Translations under genes and position numbers: made by a program | Shown: piece by piece, positions 13,111 through 55,074 of the stretch | How positions within the stretch are numbered: the stretch's first letter is position 1 | Layout of the letters: each line of letters begins with the position of its first letter | Origin: Gelidibacter pelagius | Lineage (GTDB): Bacteria; Bacteroidota; Bacteroidia; Flavobacteriales; Flavobacteriaceae | Assembly (NCBI RefSeq): GCF_017581925.1 | Contig: NZ_JAGEVG010000007.1 | Span: 62,001-126,000 of the forward strand | Direction: 5' to 3' | DNA: 64,000 nucleotides | Notes under the pieces: generated by a model | What the model was told of the DNA's origin: nothing | The model's input: the letters and a program-made list of their open reading frames with translations, nothing else | Databases searched by the model: none

Positions 13111-15555
13111 CTAATTCCCAATCCTAATAATATCCGCAAACAATCCCGAAGCAGTCACATCAGCACCAGCACCTGCACCTTTAATAATTAAAGGCTGTTC
13201 TGGATAACGTTGTGTGTAAAACATGACAATATTATCTTTCCCTTTCAGATTATAAAATGGATGATCTTTAGGAATTTCTTTTAAACCAACTTTAGCCTTT
13301 TCACCATCAAATTCCGCCACATATTTCAATTGACAATCGTTCTTTTTGGCAGTGGCGTATAATTTTTGGAAGTGATCTTCATCGGCTATTAAGGTCTTGT
13401 AAAAATCGTCAACAGAATCACTCTTTAAGTTACTTTCAGTCAAAAAGGAATCATTTTCGATATCTTCCAGATTCATTTTTGTACCGCTCTCACGTGCTAA
13501 AATCAAGATTTTACGGGCAACATCCACACCGCTCAAATCGATACGTGGATCAGGTTCTGTATAGCCTTCTTTTTGAGCTTGTTTTACAACATCGTGAAAG
13601 TTTGTGGTATCATCAAAATTATTGAACACAAAGTTCAGACTTCCCGAAAGAACTGCTTGAATAGAAGTTATTTTATCCCCTGAAGCAATGAGATGATTTA
13701 AGGTGTCAATAATTGGCAAGCCAGCACCAACATTGGTTTCAAACAGAAAGGGTGCATTGTACTTTACGGACAGTCTTTTGAGGTTGCTATAATTTTCAAA
13801 AGTACTTGAACAGGCAATCTTGTTGCAAGCCACCACAGCGATACTTTCCCTTAGGTAATCGGCATATACTTTAGAAACCTCTTCGTTGGCGGTTACATCG
13901 ACGAAAATACTATTGCGTAAGTTTAAGCTTTTTATACGCTCTAAAAACCCATCCAGAGTCGCTTTTTCTCCAGTGGCCAATTGTTCTTTCCAAGATTTTA
14001 AGGAAAGTCCGGATTCATCGAAAATCATGGTTCTGGAATTGGATAGCCCAATGACTCTCATATTGATTTTCAAATGTTCTTTTACATACTTTTTCTGTTG
14101 TTGGATTTGTTCCACAAGACGTTCACCCACATTACCAACACCGGTGATATAGACGTTCAACTGTTTGGTCTGGTCTTCAAAAAAGCGCTCATGAATGGTA
14201 TTTAATGCCTTTTTTACGTCTTTTTCAGCAATGACTGCAGAAATGTTCTTTTCTGAAGCACCCTGAGCAATAGCTCTTATATTGATATTATTTTTTCCCA
14301 ATGCACTAAACATCCTGCCACTGATACCTTGGTGGTTTTTCATATTATCTCCCACCAAAGCCACAATCGATAAATCTTTTTCTACAATAATAGGATCAAT
14401 TTTCAGCAATGAAATTTCATTTTCAAAGGTTAAATTAATGCTTTCTGCAGCAAGAGCTGCATCATTTTCATCAATTCCAAAACAGATGGAATGCTCAGAA
14501 GAGGCTTGTGTTATGAAAATAACATTGATTTTCTCCTGGGCCAAGGTTTCAAAAAGTCGCTTGGAAAACCCAGGAATGCCTATCATTCCATTGCCTTGCA
14601 AGGTCAATAGGGCAATATTGCTAATATTACTGATGCCTTTGGCTGCCTTAGAAAAACCATTGCTTTTATCACTGGTAATAACAGTGCCATGGGCGTCTGG
14701 TTCTGTTGTGTTTTTAATATGAATAGGGATATCTAAAACGAGAACCGGCTGGAGCGAGGGTGGGTAGAGCACTTTTGCACCAAAATGCGATAATTCCATG
14801 GCTTCCTGATAAGATAGCCGCTCAATAGGGTAGGCCTGTTTTACAAGTTTTGGATTTGCCGTGTACATCCCGTTCACGTCAGTCCAAATCTCCAATCGAT
14901 TGACTTTTAAAGCAGCTGCAATAATAGCCGCGGTAAAGTCAGATCCGCCGCGTCCCAAAGTAGTAATTTCTCCAGAATTGGATTTTGCAATAAACCCAGG
15001 AAGGATCGTAATTTTTTGATTGGCATTCTTGAAATACTCACGAATATTCATGTTGGTAATCCCATAGTTGACTTCTGCTTTCGTGAATTTAGAGTTGGTG
15101 ACTATCAGATCTTGGCTGTTTTTTCTAACGGCGTTTAAACCTTGGCTTTTCATGGTTTCCGCAACAATATAAGAGGAGAGGAGCTCGCCAAAACTCACGA
15201 GCTTATCGGAGGTTTTAGGCGAAAGTTCATTGATGAGATAAATGCCATCCAGCAGGCTCTTTAAACTTGCCAATTTGCTTTCAATATACTCTTTTACAGC
15301 TTCACTCTGACTGGGAATAAGTTCAGACAAAAGATTGATATGAATCTCTTTAATCGTCTTAAATTCAGATAAATAGCTTTCATTTTTATGTTGAGCAAAC
15401 TCACCTGCCCTTAATAACCTATCTGTGATGCCACCCACAGCAGAAACCACGCAAATAACGGATTCCTTTTGTGAATAATTATTGAGAATAGCGATGACTT
15501 TTTTAATGTTTTCTGTGGAACCGACAGATGTTCCTCCAAATTTTAATACGTTCAT
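13111..15555 (-). CDS. thrA: Bifunctional aspartokinase / homoserine dehydrogenase
   Basis: This 814-residue fusion catalyses the first and third steps of threonine/methionine synthesis from aspartate. Residues 1 to about 285 are aspartokinase, starting MNVLKFGGTSVGS, with TTLGRGGSDFTA. Two ACT-type regulatory modules follow (about 310-460; GNGMIGIPGFSKRLFETLA and VALVGDNMKNHQGISGR). Homoserine dehydrogenase starts near 465 (NVYITGVGNVGERLVEQI) and includes the KSLNLRNSIFVDVTAN region and a GADVTASGLFADIIRI end. Threonine feedback through the ACT region is typical of the family. It heads the thr operon. Upstream is a possible -7 box at 15749-15756. Confidence 0.97.
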   Translation of the reverse strand: MNVLKFGGTSVGSTENIKKVIAILNNYSQKESVICVVSAVGGITDRLLRAGEFAQHKNESYLSEFKTIKEIHINLLSELIPSQSEAVKEYIESKLASLKSLLDGIYLINELSPKTSDKLVSFGELLSSYIVAETMKSQGLNAVRKNSQDLIVTNSKFTKAEVNYGITNMNIREYFKNANQKITILPGFIAKSNSGEITTLGRGGSDFTAAIIAAALKVNRLEIWTDVNGMYTANPKLVKQAYPIERLSYQEAMELSHFGAKVLYPPSLQPVLVLDIPIHIKNTTEPDAHGTVITSDKSNGFSKAAKGISNISNIALLTLQGNGMIGIPGFSKRLFETLAQEKINVIFITQASSEHSICFGIDENDAALAAESINLTFENEISLLKIDPIIVEKDLSIVALVGDNMKNHQGISGRMFSALGKNNINIRAIAQGASEKNISAVIAEKDVKKALNTIHERFFEDQTKQLNVYITGVGNVGERLVEQIQQQKKYVKEHLKINMRVIGLSNSRTMIFDESGLSLKSWKEQLATGEKATLDGFLERIKSLNLRNSIFVDVTANEEVSKVYADYLRESIAVVACNKIACSSTFENYSNLKRLSVKYNAPFLFETNVGAGLPIIDTLNHLIASGDKITSIQAVLSGSLNFVFNNFDDTTNFHDVVKQAQKEGYTEPDPRIDLSGVDVARKILILARESGTKMNLEDIENDSFLTESNLKSDSVDDFYKTLIADEDHFQKLYATAKKNDCQLKYVAEFDGEKAKVGLKEIPKDHPFYNLKGKDNIVMFYTQRYPEQPLIIKGAGAGADVTASGLFADIIRIGN

Positions 15556-15748
15556 AGTTGGTAATATGATGGATTAGAAGTAATAGATGTAAAATTATAA
15601 TAAATGGGAAAATACAGGACGAGATAAAATATAACAATTAACCCCAAAGGGTAATCATGTTAAAAGGAATGTTGCCTTCGGAAGAGATAAAGGTCATGAA
15701 AACATTTTTTATGTGTTGTAAAGTTTGCATATCTTGTTCTATACCTGT

Positions 15749-47205: not shown

Positions 47206-47301
47206 TAATTTATAGCGATTGAGTATTTTATCAATATTTTTAATAGAACTATTAGGATGGTAAGATATTTTTTCAAATATTTGTAGAACACAAAGAAGAA
47301 C

Positions 47302-47358
47302 ATGACATTTATTCAATCACATCATCACCATCATCATATTTGCACTCAAGCGAACTGA
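47302..47358 (+). CDS. hisL: His operon leader peptide
   Basis: The 18-codon frame encodes MTFIQSHHHHHHICTQAN, with six consecutive His codons at 47320-47337. It lies about 150 bases before hisG and just before a hairpin terminator. A run of six His codons in front of a complete his operon is the classic mark of translation-coupled attenuation: scarce His-tRNA would stall the ribosome in the run. The weak upstream element AATATTTG at 47276-47283 differs from TAnnTTTG at one base and may be the promoter. Confidence 0.9.
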   Translation: MTFIQSHHHHHHICTQAN

Positions 47359-47374
47359 AGATGTATTGAATAAA
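47308..47374 (+). promoter_or_regulatory. His attenuator alternative pairings
   Basis: Two competing pairings are readable. First, TTTATTCAATCACATC (47308-47323, inside the leader gene) pairs with GATGTATTGAATAAA (47360-47374) over 15 bp with one bulged C. Second, ACTCAAGCG (47344-47352) pairs with CGTTTGAGT (47392-47400), which would break the terminator stem at 47387-47415. A ribosome stalled at the His codons would free ACTCAAGCG for this antiterminator pairing; one that reaches the stop codon would cover it. The arrangement follows established attenuation logic; no folding was computed. Confidence 0.75.
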
Positions 47375-47386
47375 ATCAACATATTT

Positions 47387-47417
47387 AAAACCGTTTGAGT
47401 AAATCAAGCGGTTTTTT
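47387..47417 (+). terminator. His operon attenuator terminator
   Basis: The 12-bp stem AAAACCGTTTGA / TCAAGCGGTTTT (one G-T pair) with loop GTAAA is followed by T's. It is placed between the His leader gene and hisG, so it must act as a regulated terminator. Confidence 0.9.
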
Positions 47418-47510: not shown

Positions 47511-48368
47511 ATGAGTAAATTAAGAATAGCAGTTCAAAAATCGGGACGTTTACATGACGATTCCATGAAAATCCTTAACGACGTTGGGATTTCAATAGAC
47601 AATGGCAAAGATCAGCTCAAAGCCTCAGCCAAGAATTTTCCTTTGGAAGTATTTTATCTTCGTAACGGTGATATTCCTCAATACCTTCGAGATGGCGTCG
47701 TAGATGCGGCCATTATCGGTGAAAATATCCTGGTAGAAAAAGGTTCCGATATCTCCGTCGTGGAAAAATTGGGGTTTTCAACCTGTAAGGTGTCTATAGC
47801 CGTGCCAAGATCCTTTAAATATAAAGACGTCAAAGATTTAGATGGAAAGCGAATAGCCACATCATACCCCAATACCGTCCAACAGTTTCTGGATAAAAAC
47901 AATATCAATGCACAATTGCACATCATCAACGGTTCTGTTGAAATCGCACCAAATATAGGGCTTGCCGATGCCATTGTAGATATCGTTTCAAGTGGGAGCA
48001 CCTTGTTTAAAAACAATCTCAAAGAAGTTGAAGTATTGTTAAAATCTGAAGCAGTTTTGGCCGCGTCACCATTGATTTCTGCTGAAAATGAAGCAGTGTT
48101 AAAACGATTGCAATTTCGATTTCAATCTGTTCTCAAAGGCCGACAATCTAAATATGTGCTTCTAAATGCTCCAAATGATAAGCTTGAAAAAATTATAAGC
48201 GTCCTTCCTGGAATGCGAAGTCCCACCGTTTTGCCATTGGCACAAGAGGGGTGGAGTTCCATACATTCCGTAATCAATAAAAATGAGTTTTGGGAAGTCA
48301 TCGACGAATTAAAGGCCAATGGTGCTGAAGGCATTTTAGTCTGTCCAATTGAAAATATGGTCATTTAA
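47511..48368 (+). CDS. hisG: ATP phosphoribosyltransferase (long form)
   Basis: HisG catalyses the first, committed step of histidine synthesis. The 285-residue length indicates the long form, with a C-terminal ACT-like regulatory domain (about 210-285) for histidine feedback. Motifs seen are LRIAVQKSGRLHDDSM, RNGDIPQYLRDGVVDAAIIG and the phosphate-binding EIAPNIGLADAIVDIVSSGS. I chose the ATG at 47511; the longer frame starts at a GTG inside the hairpin repeat. Confidence 0.96.
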   Translation: MSKLRIAVQKSGRLHDDSMKILNDVGISIDNGKDQLKASAKNFPLEVFYLRNGDIPQYLRDGVVDAAIIGENILVEKGSDISVVEKLGFSTCKVSIAVPRSFKYKDVKDLDGKRIATSYPNTVQQFLDKNNINAQLHIINGSVEIAPNIGLADAIVDIVSSGSTLFKNNLKEVEVLLKSEAVLAASPLISAENEAVLKRLQFRFQSVLKGRQSKYVLLNAPNDKLEKIISVLPGMRSPTVLPLAQEGWSSIHSVINKNEFWEVIDELKANGAEGILVCPIENMVI

Positions 48369-48414
48369 ATAATATGATTTCTACCTATTATGAAATCTCA
48401 AATAATAAAAAAGA

Positions 48415-49701
48415 ATGCAAATCATAAACAACCCAAATAAAGCCTCTTGGTCAGAACTCATTAAAAGGCCAACGCAATCAATCGACAGTATTGAAGACAC
48501 GGTTGTCCAGATATTTGAAGATGTCAAAAGAAACGGCAATCTGGCCATCCAAAAATATACAGCGCTTTTTGATGGTATCGATACTGAGGTAACTGAAGTT
48601 TCTATAGCCGAAATAGAAACTGCTTCCCAGAATGTATCAAGGGAATTAAAAGAGGCTATTCAAATGGCCAAACAGAATATTGAAACATTTCATAAGTCTC
48701 AAAAAACAGATAGGATTGAGGTTGAAACCATGCCAGGTGTCCTTTGTTGGCAAGAAAAACGACCAATTGAAAAAATAGGATTGTATATTCCGGGTGGTAC
48801 TGCTCCATTATTTTCAACGGTACTGATGCTTGCTGCCCCAGCGCAAATTGCAGGTTGCAAAGAAATGATTCTCTGTTCGCCGCCAAATAAACAAGGCGCT
48901 ATTGCCAACGAGATTTTATATGCGGCACAATTATGTGGTGTAACCAAGATTTATAAAGTGGGCGGTATCCAAGCGATTGCGGCCATGACCTTTGGTACAG
49001 AATCCATTTCACAAGTATATAAAATTTTTGGACCTGGGAATCAATTTGTAACTGTCGCAAAACAATTGGCAACCAAATACGGTGTGGCCATTGATATGCC
49101 TGCCGGCCCAAGTGAGCTCTTGGTTTATGCTGATGTCAAGGCAAATGCAGCTTATGTAGCTTCTGACTTGTTGAGCCAAGCGGAGCATGGAGCCGATAGT
49201 CAGGTGATATTGGTTTCAAATTCCGAATCGTTTATTGCAAAAGTGGAAATTGAGATCGCGCAGCAAATTGCCGTATTGCCAAGAAAAACCATCGCTCAAA
49301 AAGCCATTGCAAATTCGAAGCTGATTTTTATTGAAGATGATCAAGAAGCTTTGGACTTCATAAATGCTTACGGACCGGAACATTTTATTTTATGTGCAAA
49401 GAATGAAAATTTATTCATCGATGGCATTAACAATGCAGGATCTGTATTCATTGGTGATTATACTCCAGAAAGCGCGGGAGATTATGCTTCTGGCACCAAT
49501 CATACCTTGCCAACTAATGGATTCAGCAAAGCTTATTCAGGAGTTAATTTGGACAGCTTTCTGAAAAGTATGACCTTTCAGAAAATTACAAAACAAGGTT
49601 TACGAAATATAGGAACGACCATTGAGCTTATGGCTGCGGCCGAAGGATTGCAAGCTCATAAAAACGCCGTATCCATCCGATTAAAAAATATCAGCTCATG
49701 A
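48415..49701 (+). CDS. hisD: Histidinol dehydrogenase
   Basis: HisD carries out the last two oxidations to histidine. The 428-residue protein has GLYIPGGTAPLFSTVLMLA, the PAGPSELLV signature, the zinc-site DLLSQAEHGADSQ, and GPEHFILCAKN. The stop overlaps the hisC start by 4 bases (ATGA), which shows coupling. Confidence 0.97.
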   Translation: MQIINNPNKASWSELIKRPTQSIDSIEDTVVQIFEDVKRNGNLAIQKYTALFDGIDTEVTEVSIAEIETASQNVSRELKEAIQMAKQNIETFHKSQKTDRIEVETMPGVLCWQEKRPIEKIGLYIPGGTAPLFSTVLMLAAPAQIAGCKEMILCSPPNKQGAIANEILYAAQLCGVTKIYKVGGIQAIAAMTFGTESISQVYKIFGPGNQFVTVAKQLATKYGVAIDMPAGPSELLVYADVKANAAYVASDLLSQAEHGADSQVILVSNSESFIAKVEIEIAQQIAVLPRKTIAQKAIANSKLIFIEDDQEALDFINAYGPEHFILCAKNENLFIDGINNAGSVFIGDYTPESAGDYASGTNHTLPTNGFSKAYSGVNLDSFLKSMTFQKITKQGLRNIGTTIELMAAAEGLQAHKNAVSIRLKNISS

Positions 49702-50735
49702 CTATTCAAAATCTAATAAGACCCTCCATAAAGGCTTTGAAGCCTTATTCTTCAGCACGCGATGAATTTAAGGGCAATACCGACAACCTCACTTTTCTTG
49801 ATGCGAATGAAAACCCTTTCGAAAATGGGGTCAATCGCTATCCTGACCCACAACAAGGCAAGCTAAAAGCCTTGATTTCTCAGATAAAGGACGTTCCAAC
49901 AGAAAATATTCTCTTGGGGAATGGCAGTGATGAAGTGTTGGACTTGCTCATCAGGATGTTCTGTGAGCCCAATAAAGATAATATCATAATTCTTCCGCCA
50001 ACCTATGGCATGTATGAAGTTTTAGCCAATGTCAATGCGGTTGAAACGATTAAAATCAATCTTTCTGAGGACACATTCCAGCCAAAAAAAGAGACTATTT
50101 TATCTAAATCGAACGCGAACAGCAAAATTCTGTTCTTATGTTCGCCCAATAATCCCTCAGGGAATAGCTTTGAAGTATCAACCATAGCCTTTTTATTGAA
50201 GAATTTCAAAGGCATCGTGGTTATAGATGAAGCCTATATAGATTTTTCAAAACAAGAAAGTTGGCTTTCAAGATTGAATGAATTTCCAAATCTTGTGGTT
50301 ACCCAAACCTTATCCAAAGCTTTTGGAATGGCAGGTATCCGTTTGGGAATGTGTTTCGCTTCCGCAGAAATCATAGCCACATTGAACAAGATTAAACCAC
50401 CCTATAACATAAACGAACTTACACAGGCAAAAGCCATTGAAGGCCTTAGTAAAATGACTCTCATAAATTCGCAAATAGCCTCTCTTTTAGAGCAAAGAGA
50501 TATTTTAGTTAAAGCATTGGATGAAGTTAGATTTATAGAAAAAGTCTATCCATCTGAAGCTAATTTTGTGATGGTTAAGGTAGATGATGCCAATAAACGT
50601 TATCAGCAATTGATTGAAAATGGCATTGTCATTCGCAACAGAACAACACAACCCTTATGTGAAAATTGTTTGCGCCTTTCGGTTGGTACAAAAGAAGAAA
50701 ACAGGAGACTCGTTGAAAATTTAAAAAAATTATAA
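49698..50735 (+). CDS. hisC: Histidinol-phosphate aminotransferase
   Basis: HisC is a PLP-dependent transaminase. The 345-residue protein has LDANENPFENG, LLGNGSDEVLDLLIR, SPNNPSGN, and the PLP-lysine segment TLSKAFGMAGIRLGM. It starts within the last codons of hisD. Confidence 0.97.
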   Translation: MTIQNLIRPSIKALKPYSSARDEFKGNTDNLTFLDANENPFENGVNRYPDPQQGKLKALISQIKDVPTENILLGNGSDEVLDLLIRMFCEPNKDNIIILPPTYGMYEVLANVNAVETIKINLSEDTFQPKKETILSKSNANSKILFLCSPNNPSGNSFEVSTIAFLLKNFKGIVVIDEAYIDFSKQESWLSRLNEFPNLVVTQTLSKAFGMAGIRLGMCFASAEIIATLNKIKPPYNINELTQAKAIEGLSKMTLINSQIASLLEQRDILVKALDEVRFIEKVYPSEANFVMVKVDDANKRYQQLIENGIVIRNRTTQPLCENCLRLSVGTKEENRRLVENLKKL

Positions 50736-50747
50736 AGATTGAATCTG

Positions 50748-51872
50748 ATGAAAAAAGTATTATTTATTGATCGTGATGGCACCATCATCATTGAACCAAA
50801 GGATTATCAAATAGACAGTTTTGACAAGCTTTTGTTCTACCCTAAAGTGTTCAAATATTTGGGTAAAATTGCGAAAGAATTGGACTATGAAATCGTAATG
50901 GTGACCAACCAAGACGGATTGGGAACGGATTCTTTCCCTGAAGACACGTTTTGGCCAGTACATAATTTTATGTTAGAAACATTTAAATCTGAAGGTATTG
51001 AATTTAAGGAACAGTTCATCGATCGAACGTTTGATGAGGATAATGCAGATACACGTAAACCCCGAACTGGCCTGTTGACGCAATATTTTTCTGATGGATA
51101 TGATTTGGAGAATTCGTTTGTCATAGGGGATCGCTTGACGGATGTTGAATTGGCTAAAAATTTAGGTTCCAAGGCTATATTCATTAATAATCCAACGAGT
51201 GACTTTATTGATGCAGATCAGGAAACGTTAAAAGATTACATTGGTTTAGAAACTAAAGACTGGAAGGATATTTATAATTTCTTAAAGGCAGAAGATCGAA
51301 CCGCCAGTCTTGAGCGTAACACTAATGAAACCAAAATCTCCATCAACTTAAACCTTGACGGGACTGGAATAAGCAATATTGACACTGGAATAGCCTTCTT
51401 TGATCACATGTTGGATCAAATAGCACGTCATGGTCAATTGGACTTGGATATTGACGTAAAAGGCGATTTAGAGGTGGATGAACACCATACGATAGAAGAT
51501 ACAGGAATTGCATTGGGAGAAGTGTTTGCCAAAGCCTTAGGTAATAAATTGGGTGTTGAGCGTTACGGATTCTGTTTGCCCATGGACGATTGCTTGGCAC
51601 AAGTTGCCATCGATTTTGGAGGACGGAATTGGTTGGTTTGGGATGCAGAGTTTAAACGCGAAATGATCGGAAAAATGCCGACGGAAATGTTTTTTCACTT
51701 TTTTAAATCGTTTACCGACGGTGCCAGATGTAATTTGAATATCAAAGCTGAAGGCGACAATGAACACCATAAAATTGAAGCCATTTTCAAAGCGTTTGCA
51801 AAATCGATAAAAATGGCCATCAAGAGGGATCTGGAAAAAATGATTTTGCCATCAACGAAAGGGCTATTATAA
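50748..51872 (+). CDS. hisB: Bifunctional histidinol-phosphatase / imidazoleglycerol-phosphate dehydratase
   Basis: HisB catalyses two non-adjacent steps of the pathway. The 374-residue fusion starts with a HAD phosphatase (Asp8 and Asp10 in [22 protein letters not shown]). It ends with the dehydratase (about 180-374; [31 protein letters not shown], and [15 protein letters not shown]). I chose the ATG at 50748 ([12 protein letters not shown]), 12 bases after hisC. Confidence 0.97.
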
Positions 51873-52004
51873 GCCCATCCTAACCTTCCCAGAGGGAATG
51901 AACAATTATGCCAGCTTGTATGAGAATTTATCGTAATAAATAATCAATTCGTATGCATTTGTGATTTCGATTACTATTGATAAAAAGCAAAAAAATAGTT
52001 TTAA

Positions 52005-52586
52005 ATGAATATTGTAATAATAGACTACGGCGCCGGAAACACCAAAAGTGTTCAGTTTGCATGTAATCGCTTGGGGTATGATCCTATTTTGACCAATAGC
52101 TCAGAACTTATAAAGGCAGCTGATAAAGTGATTTTCCCTGGCGTAGGTCATGCAAGTAATGCCATGAAAATGCTTCAGGAATCTGGATTGGATGTATTGA
52201 TTCCAACGTTGAAACAACCGGTATTGGGTATATGTTTAGGAATGCAATTACTGTGTAATGCCACCGAGGAAGGTGCGACCAAGGGCTTAGGTGTTTTTGA
52301 TGTTCAGGTGATACGTTTTTCAGATAAAGTAAAAGTCCCACAAATGGGTTGGAATACGATTTCCAATTTGAAAACAAATTTATTTATGGGCCTTAAAAAC
52401 AATGCCTATATGTATCTTGTGCACAGTTATTACGCAGAGTTGTGTGACAATACTATAGCGCAGACGAATTATGGTGTGACCTATAGTTCTGCATTAAAGA
52501 AAAATAATTTTTACGGCGTTCAATTTCATCCCGAAAAAAGCAGTTTGGAGGGGGAAGATGTTTTGAGGAATTTCCTCAATTTATGA
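52005..52586 (+). CDS. hisH: Imidazole glycerol phosphate synthase, glutaminase subunit
   Basis: HisH supplies ammonia to HisF. The 193-residue class I glutamine amidotransferase has the nucleophile Cys77 in LGICLGMQLL and a His-Glu pair in VQFHPEKSS. A 132-base spacer without recognisable features separates it from hisB. Confidence 0.97.
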   Translation: MNIVIIDYGAGNTKSVQFACNRLGYDPILTNSSELIKAADKVIFPGVGHASNAMKMLQESGLDVLIPTLKQPVLGICLGMQLLCNATEEGATKGLGVFDVQVIRFSDKVKVPQMGWNTISNLKTNLFMGLKNNAYMYLVHSYYAELCDNTIAQTNYGVTYSSALKKNNFYGVQFHPEKSSLEGEDVLRNFLNL

Positions 52587-52633
52587 AATCAAAAATCAAA
52601 AATCGTAAATCAAAAATCGTAAATCATAAATCA
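52587..52633. repeat. Tandem AAATCAAAAATCGT units
   Basis: The hisH-hisA spacer is almost wholly made of A-rich units. Two exact 14-base copies of AAATCAAAAATCGT lie at 52593-52606 and 52607-52620, with partial copies on both sides. It is too short and irregular for a CRISPR array. Confidence 0.85.
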
Positions 52634-52635
52634 AG

Positions 52636-53370
52636 ATGAGGATTATTCCAGCAATAGATATTATAGATGGCAAATGTGTCCGTTTGACCAAAGGAGATTA
52701 TAATACGAAGAAAATATATAACGAAAATCCATTGGAAGTTGCCAAGCAATTTGAGGCTTCAGGGATTGAGTATTTGCATCTGGTCGATTTGGACGGTGCC
52801 AAGGCAAAACATATCGTTAATTATAAAGTATTGGAGCAAATTGCTTCAAAAACGAATTTGAAGATTGATTTTGGCGGCGGACTCAAATCTGACGAAGATC
52901 TTCATATTGCCTTTAATTCTGGTGCTAAACAAATTACTGGTGGCAGTATTGCGGTGAATGATCATGAAACTTTTGAATCGTGGTTGGAAAAGTATGGCTC
53001 TACAAAAATTATTTTGGGCGCTGATTGTAATGATGGGAAGATTGCCATAAGTGGCTGGCAGGAGCAAAGCAGCCTGGAAGTGATTCCGTTCATAAAAAAC
53101 TACCAAAGACAAAAAGTGCAATATGTCATCTGTACTGATATTGCGAAGGATGGCATGTTGGAAGGACCGTCATTTGACTTATACCGCGAGATCATTGAAG
53201 AATGCTCAAACAGTAGTACAGATCAATCTATAAAATTGATTGCTTCTGGCGGGATTTCACATATTGATGAATTGCCAAAACTGAGAGATTTAGGATGTGA
53301 AGGCGTCATCATTGGAAAAGCCATTTATGAGAACAGAATCAGTTTACAGGAATTGGAGCAATTCTATTAG
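52636..53370 (+). CDS. hisA: ProFAR isomerase
   Basis: HisA is a (beta/alpha)8 isomerase of the his pathway. The 244-residue protein has [20 protein letters not shown] with the catalytic Asp8, [14 protein letters not shown], and the second Asp in [19 protein letters not shown]-like [10 protein letters not shown] follows. It starts directly after the tandem repeat. Confidence 0.97.
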
Positions 53371-53430
53371 TGAAACCCTATTTTGAAGAAATTGCGAAGC
53401 AGTTTTTTCAAAACAGATGGTTGAACTAAT

Positions 53431-53460
53431 CCCGCTCCCGATAATTATCGGTATGGCGGG
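53431..53460. repeat. Palindromic repeat in the hisA-hisF spacer, first
   Basis: CCCGCTCCCGATAATTATCG followed by GTATGGCGGG is a nested inverted repeat: outer CCCGC/GCGGG and inner CCGATAATTATCGG. It shares the CCGATA core with the elements of the thr operon. Confidence 0.8.
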
Positions 53461-53512
53461 AACTCAAGAAGATACATATTTGTCATTTAGCTACAACCAA
53501 GTCTTTGTTCTT

Positions 53513-53530
53513 TCCCGATATCTATCGGGA
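53513..53530. repeat. Palindromic repeat in the hisA-hisF spacer, second
   Basis: TCCCGATATCTATCGGGA is an almost perfect palindrome of the same family (compare TCCCGATAGCTATCGGGA in the thr operon). It lies 52 bases after the first element, inside the his transcript. Confidence 0.8.
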
Positions 53531-53622
53531 CTATAAGCGCAGCGGTCTTGATTTTATATCAGACAACTATGATTCAGTATATTAATTAAACCCATTTAAA
53601 TCCTGCTTCCGCAGAAAATATT

Positions 53623-54378
53623 ATGCTTGCAAAACGAATAATTCCTTGTTTGGATATTAAAAATGGACGTACCGTCAAAGGTGTAAATTTCATCAACCTC
53701 ATTGATGCAGGAGATCCCGTTGTATTGGCAAAGCAATATGCCGAAAAAGGAGCGGATGAGCTGGTGTTTCTTGATATTTCAGCAACCTTGGAGGGACGGA
53801 AAACCACATTGGAAATGGTTCTAAAAGTAGCTGAACAAGTCAATATTCCGTTTACTGTAGGTGGCGGAATTTCATCTGTTGAAGACGTCGATTTACTGTT
53901 AAAATCGGGAGCTGATAAAGTCTCGATCAATTCATCCGCAATAAAACGTCCAGAACTGATTAATGAACTCTCTGATAAGTTTGGGAGTCAGTGCGTGGTT
54001 GTCGCCATTGACGCCAAGCAAATTGATGGTCAATGGAAAGTACATCTGGCAGGAGGAAGCATCCCTACAGAATTGGATCTTTTTGAATGGGCAAAAGAAG
54101 TTGAGACACGTGGAGCCGGTGAGATATTATTCACCTCTATGGATCATGATGGTACAAAAGATGGGTTTGCCAACGAGGCTCTGTTGCAGTTATCAACAAC
54201 ATTAAACATTCCAATTATTGCCTCTGGAGGTGCTGGAACGATTCAACATTTTGTGGACACCTTTCAAAAAGGAAAATCGGATGCCGCGCTTGCAGCCAGC
54301 GTATTTCATTTTGGTAAAATCGAGATTAAAGATTTGAAAGAAGCACTAAAGAAAAATAACATAGAAGTAAGAATTTAA
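53623..54378 (+). CDS. hisF: Imidazole glycerol phosphate synthase, cyclase subunit
   Basis: HisF closes the imidazole ring and releases AICAR. The 251-residue (beta/alpha)8 protein has [19 protein letters not shown] with the catalytic Asp, [14 protein letters not shown], and [14 protein letters not shown]. Its partner hisH is two genes upstream. It is separated from hisA by a 252-base spacer carrying the two palindromes. Confidence 0.97.
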
Positions 54379-54477
54379 AAAATGACCACAAATCGTGCTT
54401 CCGACAGAAAGATGGGGTAATGTGTTTCTTAGCAAGATCCACTCAAAAGTTATAATTGTGGCAAAAACAATACAATA

Positions 54478-55074
54478 ATGAACTTGAAATTTAATTCAGA
54501 AGGCTTAATTCCTGCCGTTATACAAGATGCTATCACCAAAAACGTCTTGATGTTAGGGTATATGAATGAAGAAGCCTTTAAGGAAACCCAAGAGACCAAA
54601 AAAGTAACGTTTTATAGCAGAAGCAAACAACGCTTATGGACCAAAGGTGAAGAAAGCGGTAATTTCCTGAATTTAGTAGATATTAAAGTAGACTGTGACA
54701 ATGATACGCTATTGATTCAGGCGCATCCAGTAGGTCCAACATGCCATAAAGGATCGGATACCTGTTGGGGCGAGGAAAATTCATCCAACTTCGGCTTTAT
54801 TTCTAAATTGGAACAGACGATTCTGGAGCGTCGTACCAACTCCAAACCAGAGGACTCCTATGTAGCCTCGCTTTTCGCAAAAGGCATCAACAAGCTGGCT
54901 CAAAAAGTAGGCGAGGAGGCGGTTGAAGTGGTCATTGAAGCCAAAGATGATAACGATGAGCTGTTTTTAAATGAAAGTGCCGATTTATTGTTTCATTATT
55001 TGATGTTGCTCCAGGCCAAAGGATTTAAGTTGGAGGATATTGAAATGATTCTTAAAAATCGGGAGAAAAAATAA
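54478..55074 (+). CDS. hisIE: Phosphoribosyl-AMP cyclohydrolase / phosphoribosyl-ATP pyrophosphatase
   Basis: The 198-residue fusion performs the second and third steps of the pathway. The cyclohydrolase part (1-100) has MLGYMNEEAF, SRSKQRLWTKGEESGN, and the zinc ligands around CDNDTLLIQ and GPTCHKGSDTCW. The pyrophosphatase part (about 108-198) has SYVASLFAKGINKLAQKVGE and the EEAVEVVIEAKDD metal site. It ends the his operon. Confidence 0.97.
   Translation: MNLKFNSEGLIPAVIQDAITKNVLMLGYMNEEAFKETQETKKVTFYSRSKQRLWTKGEESGNFLNLVDIKVDCDNDTLLIQAHPVGPTCHKGSDTCWGEENSSNFGFISKLEQTILERRTNSKPEDSYVASLFAKGINKLAQKVGEEAVEVVIEAKDDNDELFLNESADLLFHYLMLLQAKGFKLEDIEMILKNREKK

Follow-up and report, generated by a model that had tools for sequence, protein, structure and literature searches.

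A complete hisGDCBHAFIE operon lies on the forward strand at 47511-55074 of the analysed window, a stretch of 64,000 nucleotides from a draft genome of Gelidibacter pelagius (4.49 Mb in 101 contigs), and each of its genes exceeds an NCBIfam cut-off (Table 1). Among named contigs, the nearest HisG sequences are those of Gelidibacter algens (94% identity) and G. salicanalis (93%). Upstream of hisG is a short leader ORF, MTFIQSHHHHHHICTQAN followed by TGA, which carries a run of His codons and precedes an intrinsic terminator. The initial annotation had described an 18-codon leader with six consecutive His codons, the terminator, the antiterminator and a 15-bp upstream pairing, and every one of these is found at the positions it gave; it had missed the hairpin nested inside the antiterminator, the promoter and a second leader, located before pheA. 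The 15-bp pairing was also said to enclose the His codons: the pairing exists, but its strand A overlaps the first of them. Similarly, the term ‘translational attenuation’ is right as to attenuation, while transcription attenuation is what is meant.

Table 1. Features of the his locus, in window positions.
Feature	Position	Strand	Remarks
Promoter-like pair	47252-47283	+	TTAGGA (47252-47257) and ATATTTG (47277-47283); biased columns over 187 sequences (genus and family)
Leader ORF	47302-47358	+	18 codons; ATG at 47302, stop codon at 47356; kept in family and class
Strand A	47308-47323	+	Pairs with strand B (47360-47374) in ribosome-free RNA; 15 bp in the window
Pairing A:B	47308-47317 with 47365-47374; 47319-47323 with 47360-47364		15 bp, one bulged base
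Regulatory His codons	47320-47337	+	Six: CAT CAT CAC CAT CAT CAT
Strand D	47344-47352	+	5′ side of antiterminator, within the last leader codons; covaries with E; recurs across the class
Antiterminator D:E	47344-47352 with 47392-47400		9 bp including one G-U
Hairpin B:C	47359-47386	+	Inside the antiterminator; 5′ side overlaps strand B; nascent-RNA fold
Terminator E:F	47387-47415	+	12 bp, 47387-47398 with 47404-47415; U-run 47412-47417
Strand E	47392-47400	+	Common to antiterminator and terminator
hisG	47511-48368	+	
hisD	48415-49701	+	
hisC	49698-50735	+	
hisB	50739-51872	+	
hisH	52005-52586	+	
hisA	52636-53370	+	
hisF	53623-54378	+	
hisIE	54478-55074	+	

The 131-nt leader stretch folds at -31.9 kcal/mol, compared to -15.0 ± 2.7 kcal/mol for 200 dinucleotide shuffles (z = -6.2), none of which is as low. 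Both strands of the window were scanned for ATG ORFs of 8-40 codons containing a run of at least four identical residues and having, no more than 140 nt downstream, a hairpin more stable than -10 kcal/mol ahead of a run of five T. Among the 12 ORFs listed, the his leader alone has all of these properties, and the next best hairpin reaches -9.0 kcal/mol. An 18-codon gene of this kind is likely to be missed by default gene finders and is now available to annotation.

Upstream of the leader, an alignment of 187 sequences from the genus and the family shows a two-block promoter in its columns. In 47 of them the 80 nt ahead of the leader contain an exact match to the published promoter box TAnnTTTG (PMC9723704), vs. 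4 in a control window; the box of the G. pelagius window itself departs from the exact consensus. The promoter would be used to start transcription, probably at about 47287-47291, i.e. 11-15 nt ahead of the leader AUG. The AUG is located 18 nt after TTTG and has an A at position -3. An adenine at this position favours initiation in Flavobacterium johnsoniae, which belongs to a phylum without Shine-Dalgarno sequences (PMC6847099), and the leader is presumably translated.

Conservation and covariation of the leader element

In a first pass, a His-rich ORF was found in 115 of 117 hisG-upstream regions, a count in which named and unnamed loci overlap; one region scored as a miss (L053) is a contig start without upstream sequence and thus an artefact. 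A stricter test accepted ATG ORFs of up to 45 codons, no more than 260 nt from hisG, with either three consecutive His or a total of four. Such a leader is present in 107 of the 123 family genomes with hisG (one region per genome, from 149 genomes searched). Of the 72 class genomes fetched from other families, 56 have one and 16 do not. It should be noted that the class outside the family and order comprises 80 genomes with hisG, of which 72 are in this count; four others were seen separately (two with and two without a His-rich ORF), and G168, G306, G314 and G331 were left out of the count. The same test gave 0 of 284 on reverse strands and 1-3% on shuffled sequences (34/4040 family, 34/1440 class and 5/180 genus), while the control stretch from -700 to -440 gave two matches in 72 class loci and none elsewhere. 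The 16 misses within the family consist of two contig edges (L157 and L230) and 14 short His-bearing ORFs; inspected by eye, these 14 have an ORF with at least two His, a D-like tail and a terminator, and two of them apparently have GTG starts. Several small genomes (1.3-2.7 Mb; L217-L222, L228 and L234) have the His run down to two or three scattered codons and keep the tail and terminator.

Collapsing identical leaders left 243 rows, which include some doubtful class leaders among those picked automatically (e.g. L262 and L266), and in 235 of the 243 a terminator lies 3′ of the His run. The terminator is at or below -12 kcal/mol in 122 of 129 leaders (74 representatives and 55 from the class), compared to 1 of 387 shuffles. 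The 74 aligned representatives were drawn from 186 family and genus rows preselected for a leader and a terminator, and not for D:E. Because of this selection the terminator figures are favoured: it is paired in 97.3% of alignment cells, with 30 double changes against a shuffled mean of 4.0, a value reached in none of 500 shuffles, and with 17-57% paired for slid partners. The antiterminator is paired in 90.4% of cells (21-48% for slid partners) and shows 27 double changes against a shuffled mean of 10.0, again reached in 0 of 500 shuffles. Shared ancestry of the sequences inflates covariation counts such as these. A covariance model of the element has matches at E≤0.001 in 72 of 80 family genomes, many of which had also supplied sequences to the model, and 66 matches fall below 1e-10.

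Taken individually, D:E has p≤0.05 in all 8 loci of the genus, in 123 of the 178 from the family and in 19 of the 48 from the class. Members of the class form the same pairing with other letters, namely: GGTAGGCC with GGCTTACC (L257), AATAGGTG with CGCCTATT (L128) and GGGCAGGTGGTGAG with TTTACCACTTGCCC (L255). The distance from the first His codon to the start of D has a median of 24 nt (5-95% range, 21-27) in the 136 family loci where D:E has p≤0.1, and is 29 nt in 27 class loci. Lengthening D:E beyond a bulged A with a GGT:ACC step was dropped as too weak a case (fully paired in 46 of 164 vs. 37.3 expected). The hairpin nested inside the antiterminator is more stable over the 74 representatives, at -5.91 kcal/mol, than in shuffled interiors, at -3.56 kcal/mol (p = 8.6e-12), a comparison used for this hairpin, whose 3′ strand the aligner scattered; individually, 20 of the 74 have p≤0.05. 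The inference initially drawn from this one genome, that leader-peptide attenuation operates here, had been made liable to failure if close relatives kept neither His run nor stems; these relatives retain the His codons as well as a covarying terminator and antiterminator, which supports it.

In classical attenuators the usual first pairing is A:B, or 1:2, and the long-range pairing of the window corresponds to it. The pairing had been called distinctive; it is present in the window, and its register is not conserved in the family. In the exact register of the window, A:B was rejected as a family-wide trait, being paired in 55.7% of cells, which is not above shuffles. When the register is left free, significant pairing is seen in all 8 genus loci, in 117 of the 178 from the family and in 12 of the 48 from the class. 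Among the 74 representatives, 30 have p≤0.05, and in 48 strand A pairs better with its own partner than with those of others (p = 1.7e-4). These comparisons lend partial support to A:B as a real, loosely constrained pairing; it is the weakest part of the element.

Nascent-RNA folding and the choice of mechanism

The nascent RNA was folded with an assumed ribosome footprint of the A-site + 13. A modelled ribosome on any of His codons 1-4 allows the full set of nine D:E pairs before F emerges, around the hairpin at 47359-47386; at codon 5 eight pairs are formed, at codon 6 five. The terminator alone forms when the ribosome has reached the stop codon, and in ribosome-free RNA both A:B and the terminator form. 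The antiterminator thus excludes the terminator depending on ribosome position, a dependence that comes from the folding model. When the complete RNA is folded, the terminator prevails over D:E in every case, and therefore the decision must come before F is made, so that timing matters.

Taken together, we put at roughly 90% the probability that the locus is a ribosome-mediated transcription attenuator, through which charged tRNA-His sets the expression of hisGDCBHAFIE. Under histidine shortage, the first ribosome would stall on the His codons, covering strand A and leaving D free. D would then pair with E before F is made, with hairpin B:C inside, the terminator would be blocked, and the polymerase would go on to transcribe hisG. 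With ample histidine, the ribosome would reach the stop codon and cover both D and B; E:F would pair and transcription would end near 47417. Without a ribosome, A:B is predicted to form around D, and the terminator would form as well. Both termination at E:F and the response to histidine are expectations of this attenuator model.

The leader looks translated and has a similar sequence across the family, features that would also suit a gene for a His-rich peptide with its own function, e.g. metal binding, whose transcript ends at the hairpin; hisG would then be promoted separately, and a second promoter is possible between 47417 and 47511. Outside the family, however, nearly all residues of the leader peptide change with the exception of those specified by the His codons, the C-terminal residues shared within the family fall on strand D, itself covarying with E, and 64 of the 66 strong model matches, with positions compared by hand, stand directly before hisG. 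On this evidence we consider such a peptide gene improbable. It is less probable still that stalling depends on the nascent leader peptide or on free histidine, and not on charged tRNA-His. In favour of such stalling, FIQ and HHHHFH, near the His run, recur within the family, but they are missing in the other families of the class, and strands A and D account for part of these residues as RNA. Furthermore, runs of cognate codons are a mark of tRNA sensing.

The lowest likelihood is assigned to a translation-independent switch, be it a riboswitch or a protein-bound RNA, in which the ORF would be incidental. The RNA structures alone are able to alternate between two forms, yet the His codons are kept, in either synonymous form (954 CAT and 136 CAC over the 243 leaders), and the alignment shows no conserved region resembling a ligand pocket. 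In addition, no Rfam family scores above threshold around the window element or at 20 further loci, where the sole match is a tRNA.

Relation to known leaders and to other loci

The strands of the E. coli his leader, A to F, pair either as A:B, C:D and E:F or as B:C and D:E. The attenuator of G. pelagius is like the enterobacterial his leader (RF00514) in having a His-rich leader peptide, a terminator and an antiterminator before hisG, and is unlike it in the antiterminator, whose 5′ strand is part of the leader's final codons and, once paired, encloses hairpin B:C. A separate hairpin C:D is not seen here. The Rfam His_leader model itself gives 23.1 bits, below its gathering score of 49.

In the same family, a 2021 study of F. 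psychrophilum reports strong indications that leader peptides attenuate amino-acid operons, as well as conserved structured 5′ elements, hisG and pheA being named, that are shared with other Flavobacteriaceae and have no Rfam match (PMC9723704). Its hisG element precedes the same gene as ours and likewise has no counterpart in Rfam, and the section devoted to it gives no leader sequence or switch model. Since this structured element and attenuation were already reported, the present leader is not a first sighting. In Bacteroides thetaiotaomicron, of the same phylum, long 5′ UTRs contain short ORFs reminiscent of attenuation leader peptides; the example given there is a hypothetical gene, and the word ‘histidine’ does not occur in its text (PMC7366714). 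Similarly, a paper on the his genes of the superphylum does not contain the word ‘leader’ (PMC8305728). Among the literature matches listed, with subscription papers outside the scope, no title concerns a his attenuator in Bacteroidota. A Russian comparative study from about 2010 reportedly treats attenuation in several phyla, and may include Bacteroidetes.

His attenuators of the Bacillus cereus group, Peptostreptococcaceae and Erysipelotrichales (17 genomes) also have a terminator and an antiterminator before the his operon, with three to five His codons; they belong to another phylum and are likened here by their description (PMC9413887). By 2010, leader-peptide systems had been listed for Proteobacteria and Actinobacteria, in addition to that paper's own Firmicutes case (PMC2965389), and in 2022 his attenuators were named for Proteobacteria and some Firmicutes (PMC9413887). 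To these surveys our analysis adds a his attenuator documented with covariation in Bacteroidota. It is well supported that the his leader is a known and classic control device, convincingly conserved and poorly catalogued in this phylum; what is new here is the shared promoter, the hairpin nested in the antiterminator and the Phe leader before pheA.

This Phe-rich leader, MMQTANYTYQNWFYFFFSKRDETSYV, precedes pheA in the same genome (L287:1291-1465, upstream of a PF00800 gene) and has a terminator of -15.8 kcal/mol. Its tail, CGAGACTT, pairs with the 5′ arm of the terminator around a hairpin, ahead of synthesis of the 3′ arm. Of the 29 family loci that have a pheA-type gene, our own included, 20 carry a Phe-rich leader with a terminator, as counted with no shuffle control, and nine, one of them from a congener (L377), show none. 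Across these leaders the tail and arm co-vary, e.g. CGAGAC with GTCTCG (L373) and CGGGACTG with TAGTCCCG (L374). As read from its sequence, the pheA leader has the same design as the his leader.

Whether the locus is an instance of a design spread through Bacteroidota, absent from Rfam and serving at least the his and phe operons, we regard as evenly balanced; its marks would be a 5′ antiterminator strand in the last leader codons, a ribosome-sized distance behind the regulatory codons, that closes over a nested hairpin. A class-wide design would imply that the first ribosome trails RNA polymerase closely enough for control, despite the lack of Shine-Dalgarno sequences. Because attenuation needs a ribosome close behind the polymerase, such leaders make transcription-translation coupling testable in a phylum of this kind.

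For trpE, ilvD and thrA of the same genome, no leader is evident by eye in the upstream stretches. A 30-codon ORF, MQTLQHIKNVFMTFISSEGNIPFNMITLWG, lies upstream of thrA (15646-15731 and 13111-15555 of the window, respectively, both on the minus strand), and has no Thr run and no evident terminator. In other classes of the phylum, His-rich short ORFs occur before hisG in 14 of 31 loci (L317-L330; GTG starts allowed, no control), and in 0 of 11 loci whose HisG is only about 30% identical. The former may point to an older origin of the leader, and are a lead only.

Two of the strong model matches are not before hisG, namely: a contig-end fragment in G055 and a locus in G034. Five model matches without a strong resemblance to the his element were fetched as well and, by eye, are not His leaders; the sixth locus fetched, that of G034, is one. 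Here (L348, G034:C11:14398-14533, minus strand), an intact his leader and terminator are present in a genome that has no hisG match, and now precede a CorA-like gene and an HsdM-like methylase gene.
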